Translations under genes and position numbers: made by a program
The notes under the pieces: generated by a model
What the model was told of the DNA's origin: nothing
What the model saw: the letters and a program-made list of their open reading frames with translations, nothing else
The model's database searches: none
DNA from: a bacterium
GTDB lineage: Bacteria > Armatimonadota > Zipacnadia > Zipacnadales > UBA11051
DNA length: 64,000 bases
Direction of reading: 5' to 3'
Assembly (NCBI GenBank): GCA_021372615.1
Contig: JAJFUB010000019.1
Span: forward strand, 1-64,000
Part shown: positions 1,035-17,609 of the stretch, in pieces
How positions within the stretch are numbered: position 1 is the first letter of the stretch
Layout of the letters: every line of letters starts with the position of its first letter

Positions 1035-2546
<1,512 letters not shown>

Positions 2547-2622: not shown

Positions 2623-4641
2623 TCAGCTCGCCGCGGGCTCCCCGATCGTTTCAGGCTGATCGCCCTCGATGGGCGTGTGCACCGGCAGCGTCACCGTCAC
2701 CACCGCGCCCCCTCCGGGACGGTTGGCGATGGTGATGTCACCATGGTGCAGCTTGACGATCCCCCGGGCGATGGCGAGCCCCAGGCCTGTGCCCTGCCCC
2801 GGTGGCTTGGTGGTGAAGAACGGGTCGAAGACGTGGGGGATCACGTCCTCGTCCAGGCCGGGGCCGGTGTCGGCGAAGCTCACCGCCAGCATGTCCTCGC
2901 CGCGCCGGGCCGTGGCGACCGTCAGCGTCCCCGCCCGGTCCATCGCCTCGCAAGCGTTGTCCACGACGTTCTGGAACACCTGCGTCAACTGGTCCACATC
3001 GGCGAGCATGTCGGGCAGGTCCGCGGCGAACTCGCGAACGACTTCAACCTCGCCCATCTTCGGGGCCCCCGTGGTCAGGACCGAGTCCAGGAGCTGGTTG
3101 AGGTCGAAGCTGGTGAGCTTGAGGCGGTTCTGACGGGCGAAACTGAGCAGGGCGACCATGATGCTGCGGCAGCGGGCCGCCTCGTCGGCGATGACCTGCA
3201 GGTCCTCGCGGCGCGGATCGGTCGGGTCCAGTTGCCGCAAGATGAGATGGCTATAGAGCAGCACCGTGGACAGCGGGTTGTTGACTTGGTGGGCCACCCC
3301 GGCCGCGAGCTGCCCGATGGCGGCCAGCTTCTCCGCCTGCACCAGGCGCTCCTGCGTGCTGGCCAGAGCCGCATGGGAGCGCGTCAGCTCTTCCAGCGAC
3401 TTCTGCGTCTCGTCAATCAGGTACGGCAGGCACATCTGGGCCTCGGCGAGTCCCTGGCAGACGGCGATCGCTTTCTCGCGGCAGGTGGAGTACCCGCAGG
3501 CCATGCAGTTCAGCTCGTCGGCCTCGCTGAACTTGTTGATGCTGGCCAGGGCCTCCTTGATCTCCTCCTCCGACGGCATGGGCGCGACGATCGGTGGCGC
3601 GGTGTACTCACGCGTGAGGTCCACGTCGTCATACTGCGCCAGGAAGGCCTCCGCCTCCTCGGGGCTGAGCGCCTCGCCGCGCGTGACGTAGTCGCTGACT
3701 AGCTCCTTGCGGGCGAACTCCCCCGCCTGGCCGCCCATCACCGGGCCGTTGATGCACCCCTCGCACATCAGCACATCCACGATGCCGGCATGGATCTCGC
3801 CCTTCTGGAGGTCCTCGATCAGCCGCTGCACCCGCAACATGCCGTCGGTGACCAGGATGCGGTTGTCGAGGACATCCTGCTGCACGGCGGCGGTGCGGAG
3901 CAACCCACCGGACACGGGGAACACGCGGCCGAGCATGGCCCGCGGGGGGTCGAAATCGCTGTCGGGCTCGGCGGTCAGGTCTACCTCCGCCTCCTCCAGC
4001 ATCGCGCGCAGCTCGTCGAACGTCAGGGCGACCTCAATCGCGCCGGCGACATCCGGGTCGCGGATCTCGCTCTTCTTGGCCGTGCAGGGGCCGATGAACA
4101 CGATCCGCGCCTCCGGCCAGTGCTTCTGCTTGAGGGCACGGCCCAGCGCGACCATGGGTGACACCAGCGGCGCCAGGTCGGGCACCAGCGCCGGCGCGAA
4201 CTTCTCCACATACGCGACCAGCGCCGGACAGGGGCTGGTGAGCATCGGCGTACCGTTCTGGGTCGCCATGAGCTTCCGGTAACGGCGGGCCACGAGGTCG
4301 GCCCCGAAGGCCACCTCGACGACCCGCGTGAAGCCCAGACGGCGCAGCGCGCTGACCACCTGGCCCGGGCGTGCGGGGCTGAAGGCCGCCGGGAAGGACG
4401 GCGCCAGCGCGGCCACCACCTCGCCACCCTCCGCCAGCACCGCGCGGGTGTCCTCGATGCCGCTCTCGATCTGCTTGGCCTGCTGGGCGCACACGCGGAA
4501 GCAGTTGCCGCAGGCGAGGCAGCGCTCCTCCACGACCGTGGCCTGCCCCTCCACGACCTTGATGGCCTTGGCCGGACAGTGCCGCACGCAGTGGTAGCAA
4601 CGCTTGCAGCGGTCGCCGATGGTCTGGATGATGCTGGCCAT
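2623..4641 (-). CDS. [FeFe]-hydrogenase-like sensor fused to histidine kinase
   Basis: 672 residues from ATG 4641 (MASIIQTIGD). A longer TTG-started reading from 4692 would overlap the gene before it and adds residues unlike the family. Domains: two 4Fe-4S clusters of ferredoxin type (C12, C15, C18, C22; C41, C44, C47, C51); an [FeFe]-hydrogenase H-cluster domain about 70-320 with TSPCP at 135-139, GPCTAKKSE with C186, and CEGC at C293/C296; an FeS-type segment with C379, C382, C387, C395 and C404; then HisKA with H451 in GVAHQVNNPL and an ATPase domain (NVVDNACEAM, DTGPGL, GTGLGLAIA). All four H-cluster cysteine ligands are present, but the proton-relay cysteine of the canonical TSCCP motif is proline. 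Established knowledge: such fusions are treated as sensory rather than catalytic hydrogenases. Inferred role: cytoplasmic sensor of H2 or low potential controlling the adjacent hydrogenase. It begins 28 bp after the RegB-like kinase. Confidence 0.92.
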   Translation of the reverse strand: MASIIQTIGDRCKRCYHCVRHCPAKAIKVVEGQATVVEERCLACGNCFRVCAQQAKQIESGIEDTRAVLAEGGEVVAALAPSFPAAFSPARPGQVVSALRRLGFTRVVEVAFGADLVARRYRKLMATQNGTPMLTSPCPALVAYVEKFAPALVPDLAPLVSPMVALGRALKQKHWPEARIVFIGPCTAKKSEIRDPDVAGAIEVALTFDELRAMLEEAEVDLTAEPDSDFDPPRAMLGRVFPVSGGLLRTAAVQQDVLDNRILVTDGMLRVQRLIEDLQKGEIHAGIVDVLMCEGCINGPVMGGQAGEFARKELVSDYVTRGEALSPEEAEAFLAQYDDVDLTREYTAPPIVAPMPSEEEIKEALASINKFSEADELNCMACGYSTCREKAIAVCQGLAEAQMCLPYLIDETQKSLEELTRSHAALASTQERLVQAEKLAAIGQLAAGVAHQVNNPLSTVLLYSHLILRQLDPTDPRREDLQVIADEAARCRSIMVALLSFARQNRLKLTSFDLNQLLDSVLTTGAPKMGEVEVVREFAADLPDMLADVDQLTQVFQNVVDNACEAMDRAGTLTVATARRGEDMLAVSFADTGPGLDEDVIPHVFDPFFTTKPPGQGTGLGLAIARGIVKLHHGDITIANRPGGGAVVTVTLPVHTPIEGDQPETIGEPAAS

Positions 4642-4669
4642 GTCATTCACCCAAGACGACAGAACTATA

Positions 4670-6079
4670 CTACGGGGCGGACGTTCCCTCAACGGCGTCG
4701 GCCTCGGCCCCTGCTGCCGCGGGCGCCACCGGGAGCGCCACGGTGAAGGTCGTCCCCTGGCCGACCTCGCTGGCCACTGCTATCTCCCCACCGTGTGCTG
4801 TGACGACGGCCTTGACGATGGCCAGCCCGAGGCCCGACCCGTGCACCTGCAGAGCGCGGGCGGCCTCGGTGCGGAAGAACTCGTCAAACACCCGCGGCAG
4901 GTCGGCCGCGGCGATGCCGATGCCGGTGTCGGCGATGCGCACCAGCACACGGCGGCGGTCGTCATCGGGGACGGCACTGAGTGTGACGCGGCCGCCGGCC
5001 GGCGTGTACTTGATCGCATTGCCCAGCAGGTTCTCCAGCGCGGTCCGCAGCCCCTCAGGCTGTCCGTGCAGAGGCGGCAGGCCCGGCTCTACCTGCACGT
5101 CCAGCGCCACACCGCGCTGTTCGGCTGAGTCGGTCAGCGCGTCCACGGCCTGGCCTACCAGATGGCTGAGCGCCACCGGCGCAAAGGGCTCCTGCAGCGG
5201 TGCCTGACGCATGCGGCTGAGGGTCAGGAGGTCGCCCACGGTGTCCAGCAGTGTCTCGGTTCGCGCCTCTGCCCGCGCGGTCAGTTCGCGCACCTTGTCG
5301 GGGACGTCGCCGGCCCGGCCATCCCGGATCGCGCGCAGCGTCATGTTGATGCTGGCGAGCGGGGCGCGTAGCTCGTGCGACACCTTCCGCATGTACTGCA
5401 GTTGCATCTCCTGGGTGCGCTGCAGGTCGTCGCGGGCCAGGTCGCACGACGCGGCGTGATGCTCCACCTCGTCCAGCGCCTCGGCCAGTTCCCGTTCGCG
5501 CTGCCGCAGCTTCTGGCTGACGGTGACGGTAAGGAACACCGCGATGAAGAGCGCGGAGGTCATGACCCCGACGTGGGCTGCCGTATCGAGACCCCCCAGC
5601 AGCCCTCTCCCGGCGAAGATCGGCACATGCGGCAGCAGTCGGTAGTGCTCGCCGAACACCACTGCCGCGTACAGCGTGGAGGCCAGGGCGGCCTGCGCGT
5701 AGGCATGGTCCGGGGGGAGCAGAATGCTGGCGATGATCATGTGGAAGACGAGGTAGAGGGCGAAGGGGTTGTCCAGGCCGCCGGCGAGGTGGATGAGCAC
5801 CGCCACGGCGATGAGGTCCAGGGAGATCTGCGCGTTGGCCAGGCACCGGGCGGCCCGGCCGTTGCCCACCCCCGACCGACGCAGATGGCGCGCGACAGCC
5901 GCCAGCACGGCGTTGTACGCCGCCACAGCCACGCCGAGCAGCACCAGCTTGACCAGCGGCACGGGGTAGCCCAGAGGGCCGGAAGCCACAGCGGCGGCCA
6001 GCACGATGCCGACCGCCGCCAGCCATCGAAGTCGTATCAACCAGCGGTTGTTGCTCGCCAACTCCTGCTCGGGAGACAT
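4670..6079 (-). CDS. RegB/PrrB-like membrane redox-sensing histidine kinase
   Basis: 469 residues. The first about 190 residues contain about six hydrophobic membrane segments. GGLDNPF at 100-106 matches the GGxxNPF heptapeptide that forms the quinone-binding site in RegB/PrrB kinases. A short coiled linker (about 190-230) leads to HisKA with H235 in KVSHELRAPL, and then an ATPase domain (LENLLGNAIKY, DTGIGIA, GSGLGLAIV). Established knowledge: RegB reads the redox state of the quinone pool and represses or activates hydrogenase and respiratory genes through RegA. Here the partner is probably the stand-alone receiver protein encoded 34 bp upstream, although that protein lacks the RegA helix-turn-helix. 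I did not find the RegB redox-active cysteine context; C212 is the only cysteine in the linker. Confidence 0.85.
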   Translation of the reverse strand: MSPEQELASNNRWLIRLRWLAAVGIVLAAAVASGPLGYPVPLVKLVLLGVAVAAYNAVLAAVARHLRRSGVGNGRAARCLANAQISLDLIAVAVLIHLAGGLDNPFALYLVFHMIIASILLPPDHAYAQAALASTLYAAVVFGEHYRLLPHVPIFAGRGLLGGLDTAAHVGVMTSALFIAVFLTVTVSQKLRQRERELAEALDEVEHHAASCDLARDDLQRTQEMQLQYMRKVSHELRAPLASINMTLRAIRDGRAGDVPDKVRELTARAEARTETLLDTVGDLLTLSRMRQAPLQEPFAPVALSHLVGQAVDALTDSAEQRGVALDVQVEPGLPPLHGQPEGLRTALENLLGNAIKYTPAGGRVTLSAVPDDDRRRVLVRIADTGIGIAAADLPRVFDEFFRTEAARALQVHGSGLGLAIVKAVVTAHGGEIAVASEVGQGTTFTVALPVAPAAAGAEADAVEGTSAP

Positions 6080-6582: not shown

Positions 6583-7077
6583 TCACGGCGCCAGCGCAAC
6601 GGCCTCTTCGCATGTCAGCCCATCTTCGCGCAGCAGCCGTCGCACTTCCGCCAGCGCCACCGGCACCGCGCGCGCGGCGGCCTCGCTCAGGGCCAAGCCC
6701 GGCGCAACGCGCTCCGGCTCGATGCCGACGACGTGCAGGCGCGGCGTCACCCCCATGAGTTCGGCCAGCCCCAACACCTGCTCCAGCCCGATATGGTGCA
6801 ACGAGGCCACCGTGCCAGGCGGCAGCAGCTTCACTTGCTCGGGTGTGAAGACCACGACCTCGCCCGGCGCCCGGCCCATGGCCACGGCATCCACGAAGAT
6901 GACGTGATCGGCCTCCTCCATGTCGAAGAGCAGGTCGAGCCCGCCCACATGGCCCTCGATGACCTCCACGCCCGCTGGCGGGCCGGCGGTGGCCAGCTCG
7001 CGCGCCACCACCACCCCCACACCGTCGTCGGCATACAGTTCGTTGCCCACGCCGACGATCACCACGCGCCACGCCAC
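6583..7077 (-). CDS. [NiFe]-hydrogenase maturation endopeptidase (HyaD/HybD/HycI family)
   Basis: 164 residues from GTG 7077 (MAWRVVIVGVGNEL). The family normally begins a few residues before the GxGN motif, so the longer frame into the hydrogenase gene was rejected. GVGNELYADDGVG near the start, FVDAVAMG and ASLHHIGLEQVL match the nickel-sensing Asp/Glu, Asp and His positions of the family. The enzyme removes the C-terminal tail of the hydrogenase large subunit after the NiFe(CN)2CO centre is inserted. Its substrate is evidently the adjacent alpha subunit, which ends in DPCISCATH followed by a short tail. It begins 11 bp after the alpha gene, so the two are almost certainly cotranscribed. 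Confidence 0.92.
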   Translation of the reverse strand: MAWRVVIVGVGNELYADDGVGVVVARELATAGPPAGVEVIEGHVGGLDLLFDMEEADHVIFVDAVAMGRAPGEVVVFTPEQVKLLPPGTVASLHHIGLEQVLGLAELMGVTPRLHVVGIEPERVAPGLALSEAAARAVPVALAEVRRLLREDGLTCEEAVALAP

Positions 7078-7088
7078 ACCTTCGGGCC

Positions 7089-8378
7089 TCACACGAACTC
7101 GACCTTCAGCAAGTGCGTGGCGCAGGAGATGCACGGATCGTAGGCCCGCACCAGCATCTCCAGTTGCAGGGCGATCTCGTCTTGCGGCCGGTCCAGAATC
7201 TGCGGCACGAGCGCCCGCATGTCGTGCTCGATGTTGCTCAGGTTCTGGCCCGTCGGGATGATGAGGTTGCAGTCCACGATCGTGCCCTCATCGTCCACCG
7301 CGTACTCATGGTAGAGTGTACCCCGCGGCACCTCCGACGCCCCCACGCCGCGGCCGGCCTTGACCTCCACCGTCATGTCCTCCTCGTGCAGCCCCATGTC
7401 CACTAGCCGGTCAATGAACTCAATGCCGTCGAGGGTGCACTCGACACACTCGACGACCTGCGCGATGGTGTTCATGAAGGGATTGTAGGAGACCGGTTGC
7501 AGACCCAGCGCCGCGGCGACCTCCTTGGACTCGGGCCGCAGCTGGTCGTAGTTGATGTTGAACCGCGCCAGCGCGCCGACCATGTATGGCCCGACCGCCG
7601 AGGCCACGTGCTTGGCATGGGAATGCGGCGCCACGAATTCGCGCACCTGCTGCTTGTAGTCAGGGATCGCGGTGTCCCCGGTCTTGGTGGAGCGGATCAC
7701 CTCCCCCCGGTACAGTGCGTACTCCTCGGGATGGTGCAGCGCCGTGAACTCCATGTCGCGCTCGAACTGCGGCAGCGCGAGGGTCTGGAGCAGCGCGACC
7801 GTGGCGTGCAGGTCGGGCACCGAGTCCACCAGTCGCTGGCGCAGCGCCAGGAGGTCCTCCGCCTGCGGCACCTTGGGGAAGGCCTTGACCTTCATCGCGC
7901 AGGCATGGATGTGCCGGCCGGCGACGGTGCAGCAGATGTCGTTGCCCAGGCGCTTGAGGCGCAGCGCCATCTTCACGACCTCGGGGTGCGACGCCACCAG
8001 GGGCAGCACGCTGGGCACCCCCAGCAGGTCCGGCGCCACCAGGTAGAAGGCGTGCAGATAGTGGCTCTGCAGCGTCTCGCCGGCGAACGTCAGCTTGCGC
8101 AGCAGCAGCGTCTGGTCGGAGATCTCCACGCCGAGGGCGTTCTCCATGGCCTGCAGCGAGGCGCTGGTGTGGCCGACCGAGCAGATGCCGCAGATGCGGC
8201 ACGTGATGTGCGCGGCCTCGTACCACTTGCGGCCCAGCAGGAAGGCCTCGAAGAAGCGCGGCGACTCGGTGATGGCGAGCTTCAGCTCCTTGATCTCCCC
8301 GGACTGCACGTCCAGGACGACATCCCCGTGGCCCTCCACGCGCGTGACGTCATGGATGTTGATCTTCACCTCGTTCAT
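7089..8378 (-). CDS. hydA: [NiFe]-hydrogenase large (alpha) subunit, group 3b type
   Basis: 429 residues from ATG 8378 (MNEVKINIHDVTRVEGHG); GAGGT precedes the start, and the longer frame to 8426 adds unrelated residues. The N-terminal RVEGHG, the proximal motif RICGICSVGH (C63, C66) and the distal motif DPCISCATH (C416, C419) supply the four cysteines that hold the NiFe centre. The final LLKVEFV after H422 is the tail expected to be cut off by the maturation protease encoded next. The motif wording and the gene set (beta, gamma, delta, alpha) match cytoplasmic group 3b NADP-reducing bidirectional hydrogenases, also called sulfhydrogenases. The reaction is reversible H2 oxidation coupled to NADP(H). 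The symbol follows the archaeal hydBGDA convention and is not the [FeFe] HydA. Confidence 0.95.
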   Translation of the reverse strand: MNEVKINIHDVTRVEGHGDVVLDVQSGEIKELKLAITESPRFFEAFLLGRKWYEAAHITCRICGICSVGHTSASLQAMENALGVEISDQTLLLRKLTFAGETLQSHYLHAFYLVAPDLLGVPSVLPLVASHPEVVKMALRLKRLGNDICCTVAGRHIHACAMKVKAFPKVPQAEDLLALRQRLVDSVPDLHATVALLQTLALPQFERDMEFTALHHPEEYALYRGEVIRSTKTGDTAIPDYKQQVREFVAPHSHAKHVASAVGPYMVGALARFNINYDQLRPESKEVAAALGLQPVSYNPFMNTIAQVVECVECTLDGIEFIDRLVDMGLHEEDMTVEVKAGRGVGASEVPRGTLYHEYAVDDEGTIVDCNLIIPTGQNLSNIEHDMRALVPQILDRPQDEIALQLEMLVRAYDPCISCATHLLKVEFV

Positions 8379-8429
8379 GCCCGTACCTCGCTTGCTCGTT
8401 CGTGAGCCGACGCGCCCATGCGCCACGCG

Positions 8430-9176
8430 TTACGCCGGTTGGTCTTCCTGGTAGCTGTTGAACATGTTGAAGTGCATCAGCACCTCGTCCACCTTCAGTC
8501 CGTGCTCGGCCAGCGTTTCCTTGTGGGCCTGTTCGTTGGGGTGGCTCACCAGGCCCCGGCAGGCCTCGCAGCCGTCCCCGTGGGTCGGGCAGATCGCGCC
8601 GCACCCGGCGCGGACCACCGGGCCCATGCAGAAGCGACCCTGGAAGAACACGCAGACGTTCTCCTTCTTCTTGCACTCCACGCACAGCGGGTAGTCGGGC
8701 AGACGCGGGGCCTTGCCCAGAGCCACGTCCCGCACCACGCTCAGGAACTCCGTGCGGTCAATGGGGCAGCCGGGCAGGAACAGGTCCACCGGCACGACGG
8801 CGCTGAGCGGCCGGGCGGGAATGGTATCGAACTGTGCCCCCGCCTCGCCATAGACCATCTGCTTGACCTGGTTCATGCCATAGCGGTTCTTGAGGGCGTT
8901 CAGGCCGCCGGTGTGGGCGCAGGCGCCGAGGGCTACCAGAACCTTCGCGCGCTCGCGGATCGCCTTGAGCTTCTGCTCGTCGGCGTGGGTGGAGATGCTG
9001 CCCTCCACCAGCGCGATTTCCAACTCCGGCGGATTGGCCTTCTCGCTGAGGCCCTCACGCCACTCGACCAGGTCAATGAGGCTGAGCACATCGAGCAGTT
9101 CGTTCTCACACTCGATCACTGCGAGGCCGCAGCCCTCGCAGCAGGTGAAGGCAAACATGCCGACCCGTGGCTTCAT
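8430..9176 (-). CDS. hydD: [NiFe]-hydrogenase small (delta) subunit, group 3b type
   Basis: 248 residues. CCEGCG at 12-17 starts the proximal 4Fe-4S site; GACAHTGG and FLPGCPID give further conserved positions. A C-terminal cysteine-rich stretch (CVECKKKENVC, GRFCMGPVVRAGCGAIC, GDGCEAC) holds the remaining clusters. This is the electron-transferring partner of the alpha subunit, carrying electrons from the NiFe centre toward the beta and gamma subunits. There is no twin-arginine signal, consistent with a cytoplasmic enzyme. The ATG at 9176 follows directly on the stop codon of the gamma gene with no gap, and the alpha gene begins 51 bp further on. Confidence 0.95.
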   Translation of the reverse strand: MKPRVGMFAFTCCEGCGLAVIECENELLDVLSLIDLVEWREGLSEKANPPELEIALVEGSISTHADEQKLKAIRERAKVLVALGACAHTGGLNALKNRYGMNQVKQMVYGEAGAQFDTIPARPLSAVVPVDLFLPGCPIDRTEFLSVVRDVALGKAPRLPDYPLCVECKKKENVCVFFQGRFCMGPVVRAGCGAICPTHGDGCEACRGLVSHPNEQAHKETLAEHGLKVDEVLMHFNMFNSYQEDQPA

Positions 9177-10022
9177 TCAGATCGCCTCCCACATGTGCTT
9201 CAGCTCCGAGTAGGTGAAGACGGGGCCATCGAGGCAGACGTACTTGTTGTTGATCTGGCAGTGCCCGCACTTGCCCACGCCGCACTTCATGTTGCGCTCC
9301 AGCGACAGGATGATGTTCTCATCCGCGAGGGCCTTGTTCTGGCACTCGAGGATCACGAAGCGGTACATGATGGGCGGGCCGACGACCACGGCGCGAGTCC
9401 GCGCCGGGTCCGGGTCCAGGTCCGGGAACAAGGTGGTGATGACCCCGACATGCCCGGACCAGTCGGGGTGCGGCCGGTCTATGGTCAGGTGCAGGTCCAC
9501 CGCGTCGCTCGCCTGCCACTGTTCGACCTCGTCCCGGAACAGCATCTCCTCCGGTCGCTTCATCCCGTACAGCAGCGTGAAGGTACCGTAGTCGAAGCGG
9601 TTGCACATGATGTGGTGGATCAGCGGCCGCACCGGGATCAGACCAATGCCGCCGGCCACGATCAGGACGTCCTGCCCGTGGAGGGCCTCGTCTGGGAACC
9701 CGTTCCCGTAGGGCCCACGGATGCCCACCAGCGCCCCCTCCTGCAGGTTGTGCAGCGCCGTCGTCACATTGCCGACGCGGCGCACGCACAGCTCGAAGAT
9801 GGGGTCCTCACAGGGGGCCGACGCGATCGAGATCGGCGCCTCGCCGATCCCGGGGAGCGAGACCTCTACGAACTGCCCCGCGCGGTGCCCCAGCGGCTGG
9901 CCGTCCTCGAAGCGGAACTGGAGGAGCGTCTCCAGCGGCGTCTGCGGGGTGATGTGCTCCAAAACGGCCAGCTTGGGCACGTACAGTTGGCGATTGGCTT
10001 CACACTGGCAGGTGGCGGCCAT
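9177..10022 (-). CDS. hydG: Hydrogenase gamma subunit: FAD/NAD(P)-binding reductase with 2Fe-2S cluster
   Basis: 281 residues from ATG 10022 (MAATCQCEANRQLY). That ATG overlaps the beta gene's TGA as ATGA, which argues for translational coupling and against the longer upstream frame. It belongs to the ferredoxin-NADP reductase family: GQFVEVSLPG with PISIAS for flavin binding, GPYGNGF, VAGGIGLIPVRPL for NAD(P) binding, and a C-terminal CGVGKCGHCQI...C 2Fe-2S site. In group 3b hydrogenases this subunit passes electrons to and from NADP(H). The gene is called hydG in archaeal sulfhydrogenase operons; this is unrelated to the radical SAM HydG found at 11995-13431. Confidence 0.94.
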   Translation of the reverse strand: MAATCQCEANRQLYVPKLAVLEHITPQTPLETLLQFRFEDGQPLGHRAGQFVEVSLPGIGEAPISIASAPCEDPIFELCVRRVGNVTTALHNLQEGALVGIRGPYGNGFPDEALHGQDVLIVAGGIGLIPVRPLIHHIMCNRFDYGTFTLLYGMKRPEEMLFRDEVEQWQASDAVDLHLTIDRPHPDWSGHVGVITTLFPDLDPDPARTRAVVVGPPIMYRFVILECQNKALADENIILSLERNMKCGVGKCGHCQINNKYVCLDGPVFTYSELKHMWEAI

Positions 10023-11059
10023 CAGCTGCGCCTCCCTTCGGCCTCGGCGATCAGGTCGTTGAGGACCTCCACCGGGTCTATGTGTACGAGACACTGGCGC
10101 ACGCAGCGGCCGCAGCCGCAGCAGTAGGGCCGCCCGTACTTGGTGAACAGATAGGAGTACTTGCGGTAGAAGCGATGGCGCAGCCGGTCCTCCCGCTCCT
10201 CGCGGAAGTTCTCACCCGTGGCCACCTTGCTGAACTCCTCGAGCATGCACCCGTCCCACTCCCGCTCCTTGGTGCCGCGGTCCAGCGTCAGCGCCATGCG
10301 GTCTATGACATTGAAGCAAAAGCAGGTCGGGCAGACGAGGTTGCAGGTGCCGCAACTGTAGCACTTGGTGGCGTGCTCGCCCCACTGCTCGCTGTCCGCC
10401 AGCCCCGACAGGAGCAACGGCAGGCTGTGGCACTCCGCGCTGACCCGTGTGGTCTGCTGGATGCGCCGCGCCAGACGCTCCTTGGCCTGGGCCAACGCGG
10501 CGGCGCTCGCCTCCTGCGTCGGCAGGCCATCGAGCATCGCGGCTCCCGCCTCGGTGCCGATCTCCACCAGGTAGCCGCCCTCGACCACCGTCAGGAACAG
10601 GTCAAAGCCCTCGGCGGGGGTGGCCGTGCCCATGCTGCCACAGAAGCAGTGCTCGTCGGGCACGCAGTCCACGCCCACGATCCGCATCCCGCTGCGATGG
10701 GCCGTGTAGTTGGGGTCCACGTTCACATCACAGAAGGCCTGGTCCAGCGCCCAGAGGCCGTGGATGTCGCAGGGGTGGGCGCCGAAGATGACGAGCGGCT
10801 CGCTCTCCACCACCGCCTCCATGAGGGGGCGCTCCGCCAGCTCGTAGCGCACGAGTTGCTCCACCGGCGGGAAGGCGTACTTCTTGGCCGGCAGGACGGT
10901 GCTGATGTACTCCAGCTCGACCTCGCAGGGGTCCCTGACCTCCGCATAGGCCCACTGGTCTGCGCCAGTGCGGCGGTGAGGCGCCACCACCCGGGCCTCC
11001 GCCATGAGCCTGGCCAGGAGCTGCGGGACCACCTCGCAGCCGATCACCTGTAGCGGCAT
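10022..11059 (-). CDS. hydB: Hydrogenase beta subunit with two 4Fe-4S clusters
   Basis: 345 residues. The N-terminal two-thirds resemble the beta subunit of sulfhydrogenases and related anaerobic sulfite reductase A proteins (GAHPCDIHGLWALD, CFCGSMGTA). The C-terminal third has two ferredoxin-like sites, CYSCGTCNLVCPTCFCFNV and CCGCGRCVRQC. It is the Fe-S electron-transfer subunit joining the hydrogenase dimer to the flavin subunit. An excellent ribosome site, AAGGAGGT, lies six bases before ATG 11059, and the gene is the first of the hydBGDA set. The 299 bp upstream contain only a hairpin (11131-11172) and no clear promoter, so the transcript may come from hypA or from a promoter I cannot see. 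Confidence 0.94.
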   Translation of the reverse strand: MPLQVIGCEVVPQLLARLMAEARVVAPHRRTGADQWAYAEVRDPCEVELEYISTVLPAKKYAFPPVEQLVRYELAERPLMEAVVESEPLVIFGAHPCDIHGLWALDQAFCDVNVDPNYTAHRSGMRIVGVDCVPDEHCFCGSMGTATPAEGFDLFLTVVEGGYLVEIGTEAGAAMLDGLPTQEASAAALAQAKERLARRIQQTTRVSAECHSLPLLLSGLADSEQWGEHATKCYSCGTCNLVCPTCFCFNVIDRMALTLDRGTKEREWDGCMLEEFSKVATGENFREEREDRLRHRFYRKYSYLFTKYGRPYCCGCGRCVRQCLVHIDPVEVLNDLIAEAEGRRS

Positions 11060-11994: not shown

Positions 11995-13431
11995 ATGAGT
12001 CCCTCGCCCTCCCCGCACAGCGACTGGTCGCCCGCGCAGGTGGCGGCCGCGGCCCAGGCCATCGTTCAGCCCGCAGCGATCACCGCACTGCTGGAGCACA
12101 GCACCGGGGCCAGCGCGGCCGATGTGCGGGATATCCTCTTCGAGGCCGGCCACTGTCGCGGGCTGACGCTCCCGCAGGCGGCGACGTTGCTGCAGGTCAC
12201 CGACCCGCCGCTGCGCGAGCGCATCACGACCACGGCGCGCGTGGTGCATGAGCGCATGTTCGCGCGCCGCGTCCGGCTGTCCGATCCCGTCTGCCCCACC
12301 AACCGCTGTGTCAATGACTGCCTGTACTGTCCCCTGCGGCGCTCCAACACGCACCTGCGGCGCCATACCACCGGGCCGCGCGACCTGCAGCGGGAGGTCA
12401 TCCCACTGCTCGAGGAGGGCCACCGGCACCTGACGCTGGTGTTCGGCGATAGCCGCACCGGCATCCAGTACGTCCGCGATGTCGTAGACGCGGTGTACGC
12501 ACTGCGCTCGCGCACCGGCCGCGTCCAGCGGGTGGATGTGAACCTGAACTCGTCGGGACCCGAGGAGTTGGCGGCGCTGGCGGGCGTCGAGCGCCTGGGC
12601 ACCTACCACCTCTACCAGGAGACGTACCATCCCGAGACGTACGCCCGCCTGCACCCCGAGGGCCCCAAGGCTGACTTCGCCTGGCGGCTCACCAGCCACG
12701 ACCGCGCCGCGGAGGCGGGTCTGCGCGATCTGGGCCTGGGGGTCTTGCTGGGCGTGTACGACCCCTGCTTCGATGTGCTGGCGCTGCTCACCCACGCCCA
12801 CGTGCTGGTGACGACCGGCCGCGCCCGCTCGGTGACGGTGTCATACCCGCGGCTGCTGGCGACACCCGTAGCCCCGGCCTCGGCCGAGACGACCTGGGCC
12901 GTAGACGACGATAGCTTCGCCTTCCTGGTGGCGGTGACGCGGCTGGCCCTGCCGCGCACCGAGATCATCCTCAACACCCCTGCGCCCTCGGAGGTGCGAC
13001 GCACGCTCTACGCCCAGGGCGTGTCACAAGTCAGCGTGGGCTCCTCCAGCTACCCCGGCGTGTACAGCGCCGACGGAGCCCCCGAGGCAGGCGGTCGCCT
13101 GACCATCGGCCGCCCGCGCAACCTGGAGACCCTCGTCTACCGCATGTGCGAGGTGGGCTTCGTTCCGGACTTCTGCGCCGTGTCCGGCGCAGGGCCCGAG
13201 CCACCGGCCGACGCCGGCCCTGACGCGGCGCGCCTGGCCCTCGACCACAAGGCGGCCAACTCGCTGCTGGCCCTCAAGGAGTACTTGCTGGACTATGCCT
13301 CCGAGGACACGCAGACCATCGCCGCCGGCATCATCCAGGAGGAGCTGGCCCGCCTGTCCAAGAAGGTCCGCAACCAGACGCTGGAGCTGATGGAAGAGGC
13401 CGAAGCCGGCTTCCGCGGCCAGCGCCTGTAG
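11995..13431 (+). CDS. HydG-like radical SAM protein lacking most auxiliary-cluster ligands
   Basis: 478 residues from ATG 11995 (MSPSPSPHSD), preceded by GGAG; ATG 11983 is an alternative. The radical SAM site is C105-x3-C109-x2-C112 (RCVNDCLYC). The HydG hallmark run GTYHLYQETYHPETYARLHP (202-221) and the later KEYLLDYA place it in the HydG tyrosine-lyase family, whose known members cleave tyrosine to give CO and cyanide for the H-cluster. In HydG a C-terminal CX2CX22C motif binds a second 4Fe-4S cluster carrying the dangler iron. Here C394 is kept but the two following positions, at exactly the expected spacing, are S397 and A420. Auxiliary-cluster chemistry is therefore doubtful. It is divergent from hypA and shares the palindromic control region. 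It could be a modified H-cluster maturase for the neighbouring [FeFe] sensor, or a paralogue with another product. Confidence 0.88.
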   Translation: MSPSPSPHSDWSPAQVAAAAQAIVQPAAITALLEHSTGASAADVRDILFEAGHCRGLTLPQAATLLQVTDPPLRERITTTARVVHERMFARRVRLSDPVCPTNRCVNDCLYCPLRRSNTHLRRHTTGPRDLQREVIPLLEEGHRHLTLVFGDSRTGIQYVRDVVDAVYALRSRTGRVQRVDVNLNSSGPEELAALAGVERLGTYHLYQETYHPETYARLHPEGPKADFAWRLTSHDRAAEAGLRDLGLGVLLGVYDPCFDVLALLTHAHVLVTTGRARSVTVSYPRLLATPVAPASAETTWAVDDDSFAFLVAVTRLALPRTEIILNTPAPSEVRRTLYAQGVSQVSVGSSSYPGVYSADGAPEAGGRLTIGRPRNLETLVYRMCEVGFVPDFCAVSGAGPEPPADAGPDAARLALDHKAANSLLALKEYLLDYASEDTQTIAAGIIQEELARLSKKVRNQTLELMEEAEAGFRGQRL

Positions 13432-13560
13432 CCGCTCGGCGATCCACATTCCGTCGGGCCGCGCGAGGGAACACCGGGGCTGCCACCGTTGTCTGAGAAG
13501 ACAGCGGGACCGGTCGCCCTGCGGCCTCGCGAACCGCCACACCTGGAGGGGGCCTCCCCG

Positions 13561-15912
13561 ATGAGAACCATCCCTTGTGCCGGACTCACTCTCGCCGTGG
13601 TCGTCGCGCTGATGGGGGCGGGCCCCGCGTTGGCGGTGCCGCTCACGTTCTCAGGCACCGTCGTGGATGCCGCCGGCCACCCGATCGCTGACGCGCAGGT
13701 GGCGGCGGTGGTCGTCGCCCTGCCCAACAGCACTGCACTCACGGTCTTCAAGACCGACGCAGCCGGGGCGTTCACCTTCCAGTCAGAGCCCCTGCCGTAT
13801 GACCAGCGCAACGCCAGGCGGCCCGTGCTGGCCTACAAGGCCGGCCTGGCGATGGCGTTGGGCAGCGCGGAGGCGGGGAAACCGCTCGTGCTGACGCTGG
13901 GCGACAAGCCCGAGCAGCGCTCCGGTCTGGTGCTGGGCCCGGACGGCAAGCCGCTCGCGGGCGTGCCTGTGAGGGCTACCTCAGTCTCCCAGACCGACAG
14001 CGGAGGGGCCAACGCCCTTTCCAGCTCATCGCTGCCCTCGTCCGAGGGCCAGACGGTGACGGACGCGCAGGGACGCTTCGACCTCCCGGGCTTCGCGCCG
14101 GGCATAAGTGTGTTCGTCAGCATGGAAGCGGAGGGCTGCGCCGGTGCGGGCGTACGGATCACCGATACCACCCCGATGACGATAGCCCTCAAGCCCGAGG
14201 CCACCGTCAGCGGCAAGGTGCTGGTGAACGGGCAGCCTCAGGCCGGCGTGCGCGTGTGGTCGTACCCGACACAGCCGATGGCGGGCGCGCGTTCGGCCTC
14301 AGCCCAGACCGCCGCCGACGGCACGTACACGCTGCATCACCTGGGGGCCGGCGTGCTGTCCGTGTCTGTCAGTGGCGCCCCCGGCATGGCGCGTCCGCTG
14401 GAGCAGATCGTCACGATCAAGGCCGGGCAGGCTGAGAAGGGCGTAGACTTCACGCTGACGCCCGGCGCCCTCATCCGGGGCAAAGTCACCGATGAGAAGA
14501 CCGGGCAGCCTGTGGCGAAGGCCAGTGTCACCACCATGACCGCCGAAGGCCGGTCGCCGGCCAGCGCCTCCACCGACGCCGATGGCAAGTATGAGCTGCG
14601 CGTGCCGCCGGGAACCTATCGGCTCGTCTGCCAGGGCGTCGGCGGGGCCTGGACAGGGCCCGTGTTCGTGACTGTCGGCGGACGTCCCCAGCCCGTTGGC
14701 TCCGTCGAGGTCACGGTCAAGGAAGGGGATGCTCTCGAGGGCCAGAACCTCACCACACGCCTGCCGCGGACGATCAAGGGTCAGGTGCTCTTGCCCGACG
14801 GCCAGCCCGCCACGGGCGCCTTGCTGACCATGCTGGGCGGGTTCGAGGGGCGGGCGATGCCCGACCTGCAGCCGGAGGCGCGGTTTGAGCTGAAGCTGCC
14901 CGACCCACCCACGACGCCCGGTCCCCTCTCGTACCAGTCCCAGCCCACTCTCCTCGTCACGGAGCCGACGCGCAACCTGGCGGCTGCCATTCAGAGCCCG
15001 TTCGCCGACAGCCTGACGGTCGCACTGCAACCCGCCGCGACGGTCAGTGTGCTGATCGCCGACGAACAGAACCACCCGCTCCCGGGCTTCCGGGTGTCCG
15101 TCAGCTACCCGATGGGGGAACATAGCTGGATGAGCCAGGGGTCGGTGGTGTCGGACGCGCTGGGCCTGGTGCGGCTGGCGCTGCTGCCGCCGGGCTTCAA
15201 GCTGCGGGTCACCCCGGACACCACGCTGCAGCAGTTGATGGTCAACGACACGGCGCTGCGCGAAGCCGAGTTCGTGCTGAAGCCGGGCGAGGAGCGGCAA
15301 CTGCCGACGATCATCGTCAACCCCGCCGGGCGCAGCCTGAACGTGTTCGTGGGCGAGGCGGACGGCAAGCCGGTCGCCGGCGCCCAGGTGTATGCTCCCG
15401 GGGCGCAGACCCCGGCGCTCACCGACGCCGCCGGGAAGGTGACCCTGACGAAGCTGCCGCTGAAGGGGAAGGTGCTGCTCATCGCGTTCCATCCCACGGA
15501 GGAACGGCTCGCGGTCGAGAGCGTAGACCCCGACGCGGGGGTGTGGCCGGGCCTGATCGTCAAGCCCCGGGGCACGACGACCGGGATGCTCATCGCCAAG
15601 CCGGGCGGCAAGCCGCTGGAGGGCTGGCAGGTCTGGTGTTGGGCGCGGGGCGACATATGGCGCCTCCCGTATGAGGTGCAGCAGCGCCTCGGGACCTCGG
15701 GCGGCGAGCGGCCGCGCAGCACCACCGATGCCCAGGGGCGCTGGCGCCTGGAAGGCCTCATCCCGGGGCTCGAGTACCAGTTGGTCGGCTCCACCGACGC
15801 GGCCGGCGGGGCCCGCTGGGGGGGCCGGGGCATCAGCACCTTCACGGCCGCCGGCGGGCCCGACCAGCAGGACCTCGGGATCGTGGAGTGCGACGTGCCC
15901 GAGGGGCAGTAG
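13561..15912 (+). CDS. Secreted protein of repeated carboxypeptidase-regulatory-like domains
   Basis: 783 residues from ATG 13561 (MRTIPCAGLT), preceded by GGAGG. The start is chosen because it begins a signal peptide ending near GPALA; an in-frame upstream extension adds 24 non-hydrophobic residues. I count about eight units of the type SGTVVDAAGHPIADAQV...TDAAGAFTF, which is the pattern of CarboxypepD_reg-like beta-sandwich domains. Such domains form extracellular stalks or binding modules, and no catalytic domain is visible. There is no C-terminal membrane anchor or LPxTG-type signal. It sits between the HydG-like and hydE genes and converges on hydE with a 9-bp gap. I see no functional link to hydrogenase maturation. 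Confidence 0.8.
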   Translation: MRTIPCAGLTLAVVVALMGAGPALAVPLTFSGTVVDAAGHPIADAQVAAVVVALPNSTALTVFKTDAAGAFTFQSEPLPYDQRNARRPVLAYKAGLAMALGSAEAGKPLVLTLGDKPEQRSGLVLGPDGKPLAGVPVRATSVSQTDSGGANALSSSSLPSSEGQTVTDAQGRFDLPGFAPGISVFVSMEAEGCAGAGVRITDTTPMTIALKPEATVSGKVLVNGQPQAGVRVWSYPTQPMAGARSASAQTAADGTYTLHHLGAGVLSVSVSGAPGMARPLEQIVTIKAGQAEKGVDFTLTPGALIRGKVTDEKTGQPVAKASVTTMTAEGRSPASASTDADGKYELRVPPGTYRLVCQGVGGAWTGPVFVTVGGRPQPVGSVEVTVKEGDALEGQNLTTRLPRTIKGQVLLPDGQPATGALLTMLGGFEGRAMPDLQPEARFELKLPDPPTTPGPLSYQSQPTLLVTEPTRNLAAAIQSPFADSLTVALQPAATVSVLIADEQNHPLPGFRVSVSYPMGEHSWMSQGSVVSDALGLVRLALLPPGFKLRVTPDTTLQQLMVNDTALREAEFVLKPGEERQLPTIIVNPAGRSLNVFVGEADGKPVAGAQVYAPGAQTPALTDAAGKVTLTKLPLKGKVLLIAFHPTEERLAVESVDPDAGVWPGLIVKPRGTTTGMLIAKPGGKPLEGWQVWCWARGDIWRLPYEVQQRLGTSGGERPRSTTDAQGRWRLEGLIPGLEYQLVGSTDAAGGARWGGRGISTFTAAGGPDQQDLGIVECDVPEGQ

Positions 15913-15921
15913 ACGGCGCGG

Positions 15922-16956
15922 TCAGCCTCCGACCCGCAGGGCATGGCCCGGCCCCGTCGCGACGTGGCGGCCCAGCGACTGCAGCCGCGCCTCCAGGCAG
16001 CCACGACAGTGCTCCGGCTGCTCGTCGAGGCAGATCTTGCCCGGGTAGATCTCGTACGCCGCCCGATACACCTGCGGCGTCGCGTTCGGCATCATGACGT
16101 TGGCCCCCGCCTGCAGCCCCTTCTCCCGGCCCAGCGGATCAATGCTCCCCAGCGCCGTCGTCGCCACGAGATGGCACTGCGGCAGTAGCAGCCGTGCCAG
16201 CGCCATCATGCGCAGCACCAGCCCGACCTCACACCGGGGCGCCTCCGCCAGCGGTGTCTGGGGGTGCGGGATGAACGGGCCGAGGCCGACCATGTCGGGC
16301 GCCAGGTCGCGCAGGAAGAGCAGGTCGCGCGCCAGCAGGGCCGGGGTCTGGCCGGGGAGGCCCACGAGCAGCCCCGAGCCGACCTGATAGCCCAGCTCCC
16401 GGAGGTCGCACAGGCAGCGCACCCGGAGGGCGAAGCTCATGCCGGGGTGCAGGTTCGCGTACAGGTCCCGGTCGCTGGTCTCGATGCGCAGCAGGTAGCG
16501 GTCCGCGCCCGCTTCACGCCAGGCGGCATAGTCCTCACGGGGGCGCTCGCCGAGACACAGGGTGACGGCCATGCCCGTCTCGCCCTTGATCCGCCGCACG
16601 AGGTCGGCGACGACCGTGCGGCCGAACCACGCATCCTCGCCCGACTGCAGCACGACCGTCTGGTAGCCCAGGCTCGCGGCGTGGCGCGCGGCGGCGGCAA
16701 CGGCCTCGGGCGTCATGCGGTAGCGAGGCAGTCCGTGGTTGGGCGCCCGCAGGCCGCAGTACCGGCACGTGCGGGTGCAGTGGCTGGAGAACTCGATCAG
16801 GGCGCGCAGGTGCACCCCCTCGCCCATGTGCTCCTGGCGCACCCGGTCGGCAGCCGCGTACAACGCCGCCTCGAGGGCCTCGTCGCTTGTCGTCAGCAGT
16901 GCCTCGAGCACCTCCGTCTCGATCTCCCCCGCCAGCAAACGCTCTACCAGGGTCAT
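15922..16956 (-). CDS. hydE: [FeFe]-hydrogenase H-cluster maturation radical SAM protein HydE
   Basis: 344 residues from ATG 16956 (MTLVERLLAG). The start overlaps the metW stop codon as ATGA, which argues against the longer frame to 17034. The radical SAM site is C60-x3-C64-x2-C67 in IEFSSHCTRTCRYCGLR. HydE-typical motifs follow: VLQSGED, GSGLLVGLPGQT, GPFIPHPQTPL, TTALGSIDPLGREKGL, ANVMMPN and IYPGKIC. The second, usually non-essential cluster is present as C309-x7-C317-x2-C320. Established knowledge: HydE acts on an iron-cysteine intermediate from HydG to help build the azadithiolate-bridged 2Fe unit. It is the distal gene of a metX-metW-hydE operon, an unusual setting. HydF is not in the window. 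Confidence 0.92.
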   Translation of the reverse strand: MTLVERLLAGEIETEVLEALLTTSDEALEAALYAAADRVRQEHMGEGVHLRALIEFSSHCTRTCRYCGLRAPNHGLPRYRMTPEAVAAAARHAASLGYQTVVLQSGEDAWFGRTVVADLVRRIKGETGMAVTLCLGERPREDYAAWREAGADRYLLRIETSDRDLYANLHPGMSFALRVRCLCDLRELGYQVGSGLLVGLPGQTPALLARDLLFLRDLAPDMVGLGPFIPHPQTPLAEAPRCEVGLVLRMMALARLLLPQCHLVATTALGSIDPLGREKGLQAGANVMMPNATPQVYRAAYEIYPGKICLDEQPEHCRGCLEARLQSLGRHVATGPGHALRVGG

Positions 16957-17609
16957 CGTTGGCCTCCGATCCGCTCTACCAGGAAGAGACCGGCGTCCGC
17001 CCGCAGGTTCGGCAGGAACCGCACCACCCGGCACCGGCCGCGCGCATCCGTGCGCAGCGGGACCTCGCGCAGGATGCGCAGGTCCGCGAGCCGGCAGAAG
17101 TCCCGGAAGTCCTTCAGGGTCGTGAGGTGGATATTGGGTGTGTCATACCACTCGTACGGCAGACGGGCGGTCTTGGGCATGCGCCCGCCGAAGAAGAGCT
17201 GCGCCCGGGCGGACCAGTGGGCGAAGTTCGGCAGCCCGATGATGCAGCGCCGGCCCACCCGCGCCACCTCCCGCAGCAGGTGGAGCGGTCGCTGTAGGAC
17301 CTGGATGGTGTTCGTCAGGATGACGACATCCACAGACTGGTCGGCGTAGTCGGCCAGCCCCTCGTCCAGGTCGCCGTGGACGATGTTGGTCAGGCCCCGG
17401 GCCACGCAGGCCTGGATGCACTGCTCGGACAGCTCGATCCCCAGGCCGCGGACGTGCCGCTCGCGGCTCAGCGCTGCCAGCAAGTCGCCGTTGCCGCAGC
17501 CCAGGTCCAGGACGGTGCTGCCCGGCTCGACCAGCTCAATGACATGCCGGAAGTCCTGCGGCGGACATCCCACCCAGGAGGCCGGCTGTGTCAGCGTTGA
17601 GGCAGTCAT
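16953..17609 (-). CDS. metW: MetW-like SAM-dependent methyltransferase
   Basis: 218 residues. The class I methyltransferase motif VLDLGCGNGDLL (about 33-44) and the MetW-specific run LPYEWYDTPNIHLTTLKDF (about 149-167) identify the family. MetW is found beside MetX in many bacteria and is thought to assist or be required for MetX homoserine acetylation; its own methylation substrate is not established. It begins four bases after the metX stop, and its stop codon overlaps the hydE start, so metX, metW and hydE are almost certainly one transcript. Confidence 0.93.
   Translation of the reverse strand: MTASTLTQPASWVGCPPQDFRHVIELVEPGSTVLDLGCGNGDLLAALSRERHVRGLGIELSEQCIQACVARGLTNIVHGDLDEGLADYADQSVDVVILTNTIQVLQRPLHLLREVARVGRRCIIGLPNFAHWSARAQLFFGGRMPKTARLPYEWYDTPNIHLTTLKDFRDFCRLADLRILREVPLRTDARGRCRVVRFLPNLRADAGLFLVERIGGQR

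Follow-up and report, generated by a model that had tools for sequence, protein, structure and literature searches.

A HydG-like radical SAM clade of Armatimonadota with a replaced tyrosine-clamp arginine and a decaying auxiliary-cluster motif

Introduction

HydG is the textbook two-site radical SAM maturase, and its auxiliary cluster carries the dangler iron on which the Fe(CO)2(CN)Cys synthon is built. In the tyrosine-bound structure of ThiH, R300 binds the amino and carboxylate groups of tyrosine, and T299, R306, S318 and S321 hold the phenolate (PMC9046217). These five tyrosine-site residues have been termed strictly conserved in ThiH and HydG, R300 in NosL too, and the published alignment marks the Tyr at position 80 of ThiH with a star (PMC9046217). 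In clostridial acetogens, HydG has been reported with C-x5-C or C-x4-C variants of the auxiliary motif, or with the motif missing (PMC9431212).

Here we analyse P0001, a HydG-like protein, together with its eight orthologues; we call these nine Armatimonadota proteins FAM. FAM shares with HydG (TIGR03955; 4wcx, 4rtb) the full-length fold, the CX3CX2C motif, the phenolate pocket and an [FeFe]-hydrogenase gene neighbourhood, but differs from it in having Pro at the R300 site, Cys at the Tyr80 site, a new D181 and N185 and no GRTGxxFM segment, and in an auxiliary CX2CX22C motif that is incomplete in P0001 and variable across the clade. It has the barrel and the phenolate pocket of ThiH (TIGR02351; 7pd1), an enzyme that works without an auxiliary cluster; unlike FAM, ThiH has R300, Tyr80 and E158 (P329, C100 and N183 in P0001), while FAM carries an extra C-terminal domain and its genomes are missing the thiamine thiazole genes. 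NosL (TIGR04158; 4r33), a tryptophan lyase, has the same radical SAM aromatic amino-acid lyase fold, yet it keeps the clamp Arg (R323) and is missing the R306-type Arg that FAM keeps. The HydG variants of acetogens depart from CX2CX22C as FAM does, the report there being one of Cys spacing (PMC9431212). Variable C-terminal Cys motifs of HydG being known from that work, the lack of auxiliary cysteines is in itself nothing new. In the literature searched we found no HydG paralogue of the FAM kind, and no HydG-fold protein encoded within a hydrogenase operon that has lost the tyrosine clamp across its clade.

Results

The protein and its fold

The window, i.e. the whole stretch of DNA analysed, comprises 64,000 nt (GCA_021372615.1, contig JAJFUB010000019.1, positions 1-64,000, forward strand). 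P0001 is encoded at 11995..13431 on the + strand and has 478 aa; the assignment as a HydG-like radical SAM protein comes from its ORF, HMM matches, best PDB match and AlphaFold2 model. The nearest NCBIfam model is HydG (TIGR03955), to which it scores 267 bits, below the cut-off of 312. ThiH (TIGR02351) comes second with 171 bits against a cut-off of 380, and the NosL model (TIGR04158) gives 71 bits only. Four other FAM members were compared with TIGR03955: one passes (G256, 334.5 bits) and three fail (245, 283 and 289 bits).

The best PDB match is 4wcx, HydG of T. italicus (TiHydG). The AlphaFold2 model, built with 45 sequences, has a mean pLDDT of 88.6 and superposes on 4wcx with a TM-score of 0.88 (query) or 0.92 (target) over the whole length, C-terminal domain included, so that the predicted fold is intact. 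The CX3CX2C motif of the SAM cluster (C105-C109-C112; 12307..12330, + strand) is intact too, as the first-pass annotation had stated, and is invariant in FAM (9/9) and in HydG (98/98); radical SAM chemistry is inferred from it. Judged by its sequence, P0001 is nevertheless HydG-like and not HydG, because its auxiliary cluster motif is incomplete and its tyrosine-clamp Arg is lost.

The substrate pocket

We transferred the tyrosine-site residues of ThiH to P0001 through a gap-free local alignment (phmmer) to 7pd1. The Arg of the STRE motif, equivalent to the amino/carboxylate clamp R300 of ThiH, is replaced by P329 (12979..12981, + strand): this site is Pro in 9/9 FAM proteins and Arg in the 98/98 other HydG and in E. 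coli ThiH. Likewise, the invariant Tyr of PLYxSNxC (ThiH position 80) is replaced by C100 (12292..12294, + strand), with Cys in all nine FAM members vs Tyr in 98/98 other HydG. The HydG core motifs had been described as intact in P0001; these two substitutions, found there and in all eight orthologues, overturn that description. Further changes lie in the stretch D181-x-N183-x-N185 (12535..12549, + strand), in which N183 occupies the position of ThiH E158, according to the same alignment, and is flanked on one strand by the FAM-specific D181 and N185.

The phenolate end of the pocket is kept: T328, R335, S347 and S350 (12976..13044, + strand) correspond to ThiH T299, R306, S318 and S321, and residue counts across FAM give T 9/9, R 9/9, S347 8/9 (one member has Ala) and S350 9/9. 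His267 is kept as well. Type-II divergence between FAM and HydG singles out nine sites in total, C100, D181, N185 and P329 among them, and the ThiH alignment places these four at or beside the tail of the substrate.

The auxiliary-cluster site

The auxiliary motif of P0001 (13174..13254, + strand), as read from alignment and residue counts, is decayed to C394, S397 and K419/A420. The claim had been that two of three auxiliary cysteines were lost at exact positions. Part of it stands: C394, the first Cys, is the only one left, with Ser at 397 and no Cys at the third position. The exactness does not, as the loop between the second and third positions is shorter than in HydG, and anchoring on the invariant Asn422 puts the third position at K419; simple counting would give A420, and neither residue is Cys. 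The whole C-terminal remainder downstream of C394 contains zero Cys, hence no alternative set of ligands in that domain. The GRTGxxFM segment of HydG is missing from all nine members.

Nor is the exact loss of two cysteines a feature of the type, since relatives keep 0, 1, 2 or 3 of them: three in G256, G251 and G248, two in G258 and G252, one in the window genome (G000) and in G257, and none in G254 and G255. The minimum numbers of losses on the FAM tree for the three positions are 1, 2 and 2. To go by the residues present, the triad CX2CX~22C is in graded decay across FAM, with independent losses in several lineages, which suggests that the auxiliary cluster is dispensable for whatever these proteins do; the three members with all three cysteines could still bind a cluster. 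The changes at the substrate end are more uniform across the clade than the loss of auxiliary cysteines and are thus probably older. This loss seems to be a secondary effect that came later and is still under way, with the defining change lying elsewhere.

Distribution, phylogeny and selection

A search of the phylum (291 genomes) returned eight orthologues of P0001 at 50-66% identity (L023-L030), separated by a clear gap from ordinary HydG, which reaches at most 40% identity. A DNA pattern encoding CPxNRCxxxCLYCP matches every FAM gene and no other fetched locus; it had no match among the 392 genomes searched from the phylum to which a Planctomycetota locus belongs. In a scan of genome contigs FAM was found in six records, all of Armatimonadota and none elsewhere, and one scan of viral contigs returned none. 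Within the range of these searches, FAM occurs only in one part of Armatimonadota.

The nine proteins are monophyletic (support 100/100) on a branch of 0.89 and sister to all sampled HydG in a midpoint-rooted tree, the direction of the FAM/HydG split being inferred from that root, with a ThiH-rooted tree unresolved. A recent origin of FAM from the canonical HydG found downstream of HydA in some more distant families (G224, G218) is unsupported, FAM being a deep sister branch. For G254 vs G255, both with zero auxiliary Cys, dN is 0.052 and dS 0.588 (omega 0.089), and the C-terminal part alone gives dN/dS values of 0.030/0.422. The FAM gene is therefore under purifying selection, its decayed C-terminal domain included.

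Hydrogenase operon and other maturases

In 8/9 genomes the FAM gene lies directly downstream of the HydA gene of a bifurcating [FeFe] hydrogenase, in the order regulatory proteins, HydC (NuoE-like), HydB, HydA and FAM, followed in most genomes by HydS and then by a response-regulator/kinase. The link to [FeFe] hydrogenase suggested by the first-pass annotation is supported by this arrangement. In these operons HydB, of 1015 aa, carries a fused GltD-like module, and the L1 motif of HydA is TSCSPGW. The latter is also that of HydA1 in the solved bifurcating HydABC of A. woodii (7q4v), which makes the operon hydrogenase one of an ordinary kind; the GltD fusion and the inserted HydG-like gene set the armatimonad operon apart from that of A. 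woodii. Sister families (G274, G275, G289 and G290) have the same operon with HydS right after HydA and no FAM gene, so that the FAM product is not required for that hydrogenase. In the more distant G224 and G218, canonical HydG and HydE follow HydA. We also considered an exotic H-cluster matched to the odd HydG, the TSCSPGW motif of the adjacent HydA, in place of the usual TSCCP, resembling a change of cubane ligand; this is out, because A. woodii HydA1 has the same motif and TSCSPGW HydA is present in armatimonad genomes without FAM.

The window genome carries its hydABC operon on a different contig (C18, L173). The window itself holds HydS (2623..4692, - strand), a sensory [FeFe]-hydrogenase-like protein with a histidine kinase domain (PF02906, HisKA, HATPase_c), which is orthologous at 44-46% identity to the HydS following FAM in relatives, and a response-regulator/PAS/histidine-kinase protein (1035..2546, - strand), which its domains and the gene order of relatives identify as an operon mate of HydS. 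One of the genome's two HydE maturases is encoded at 15922..17034 (- strand; TIGR03956, 352 bits, above cut-off). The [NiFe] hydrogenase operon at 6583..11059 (- strand), with protease, large, small, gamma and beta subunits, is a neighbour only and putatively group 3b-like. P0001 is followed here, but not in relatives, by a large protein (13489-15912) bearing five carboxypeptidase-regulatory-like repeats, apparently through a local rearrangement.

Every FAM genome (9/9) encodes another HydG with the clamp Arg and three auxiliary Cys, of CX2C type in six genomes and CX5C type in three (G254, G255 and G257). A search for a second, complete hydG had been proposed as a check, and the window genome does have one, on contig C152, with CX2CX22C intact; it also encodes HydF, besides the two HydE. 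No ThiH or ThiO was found in FAM genomes, and for ThiG nothing exceeded scraps of 20-31 bits in FAM or control genomes.

The CX5C type belongs to a HydG subgroup bearing FCTAGYRCGRTG, i.e. CX5C instead of CX2C, which occurs in Planctomycetota, Omnitrophota and some Armatimonadota (L062:9139-10659, L085, L087, L102, L106, L119, L134 and L142). Unlike FAM, the CX5C-type HydG examined here keep the Arg and the Tyr. In the phenolate pocket of this subgroup, and of a related group of CX2C type, T299 is changed to Ala (or Cys) and S318 to Asp; Asp is found at the S318 position in 42/98 sampled HydG.

Discussion

We favour the view that FAM is a functional, neofunctionalised, catalytic radical SAM paralogue of HydG that has ceased to make the Fe(CO)2(CN)Cys synthon, and put its probability at about 60%. 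Going by the conserved motifs, the 5'-deoxyadenosyl radical would still be made at the CX3CX2C cluster, and a phenolate-type head probably still docks in the pocket of T328, R335, S347 and S350. With Pro for the clamp Arg, and with Cys100, Asp181 and Asn185 newly present on the barrel face below it, FAM would no longer grip the alpha-amino/carboxylate group of L-tyrosine. Its chemistry would most likely be an attack by the radical either on a relative of tyrosine that carries another tail or on tyrosine itself, bound in a different pose; tyramine, a keto-acid or peptide-borne tyrosine are candidates by guesswork, and Cys100 may be a new catalytic or H-donor residue. If dehydroglycine no longer has to be turned into CO and CN, the second cluster would be dispensable and open to the independent losses seen in several lineages. 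The product may serve or regulate the bifurcating [FeFe] hydrogenase/HydS operon, as gene order suggests, ordinary synthon synthesis presumably being left to the other HydG of each genome. The more specific idea, that FAM is an undescribed radical SAM family which descends from HydG or is its sister, and which serves the bifurcating [FeFe] hydrogenase or HydS by a new reaction on a phenolic substrate other than tyrosine (or on tyrosine within a peptide), is tentative, and we rate it somewhat short of an even bet.

The earlier proposal that P0001 does not build the synthon by the usual route is supported by these data. Its companion, that tyrosine-derived products are released with no synthon formed, is weakened by the loss of the strictly conserved clamp Arg in the whole clade. 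In its general form, FAM would still be a HydG/ThiH-type tyrosine lyase, yielding dehydroglycine and p-cresol (perhaps with free CO and CN) without dangler iron and feeding H-cluster assembly or signalling. The kept phenolate pocket, SAM motif and His267 agree with this, as does the place of the gene in a hydrogenase operon, and release of free CO and CN has been reported for HydG (PMC9431212). Canonical tyrosine lysis is even conceivable if another residue could stand in for Arg300. However, with Pro for the clamp Arg and Cys for Tyr80 in 9/9 members, and with a HydG of complete auxiliary Cys in every FAM genome, we find such a lyase unlikely. Less likely still is a non-catalytic pseudo-maturase, i.e. 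a HydG-shaped scaffold or sensor (binding HydF, HydA or HydS, for example) that regulates the bifurcating hydrogenase: the second site is decaying, the substrate clamp is gone and the gene often sits just before that of the HydS kinase, but the invariance of the SAM-cluster Cys (9/9) and the new invariant active-site residues point to altered catalysis rather than loss.

Two further explanations carry little weight. FAM is missing the auxiliary cluster as ThiH is, and its genomes have no ThiH, which might suggest a replacement ThiH making 2-iminoacetate for thiamine; this is very improbable, as the same genomes have no real ThiG and no ThiO and ThiH itself needs R300, and the absence of ThiG led us to discard it. 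The chance that P0001 is an artefact of sequencing or assembly, or a pseudogene, is practically nil, even though the window genome is a single draft of 171 contigs. The ORF is intact, purifying selection is evident, and the nearest relative, at 66% identity, has the same P329 and C100. Close homologues with the cysteines had been named as what would point to sequence error; this applies by half, in that this relative has CX2C but has likewise lost the third Cys, and with seven further genomes there are eight orthologues whose auxiliary region is degraded to differing degrees, which refutes such an error.

With the clamp uniformly rebuilt and the second site at 3, 2, 1 or 0 Cys, FAM offers natural test proteins that may show which residues determine the substrate and under what conditions the second cluster is required. 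It may also point to an accessory step of bifurcating [FeFe] hydrogenases that has gone unrecognised. For motif-based annotation FAM is a warning: G256 (L025/L054:9442-10899), passing the HydG cut-off without the clamp Arg, would be called HydG, and if the new-family reading is true, some FAM members are now auto-annotated as HydG.

Some observations concern the hydrogenases themselves. The HydB-GltD fusion (L054:4414-7461 and relatives) contains NuoF domains, and rules that sort hydrogenases into A2/A3 would be misled by it. At L157 (G290), a HydA orthologous to the TSCSPGW type reads TSCCPGW, an apparent reversion or ancestral state. In a survey of Armatimonadota MAGs from marine sediment, FeFe hydrogenases were reported absent (PMC10290634); the window genome, in contrast, encodes six Fe_hyd_lg_C proteins (on C143, C18 and C85 and at 2623-4692 of the window).
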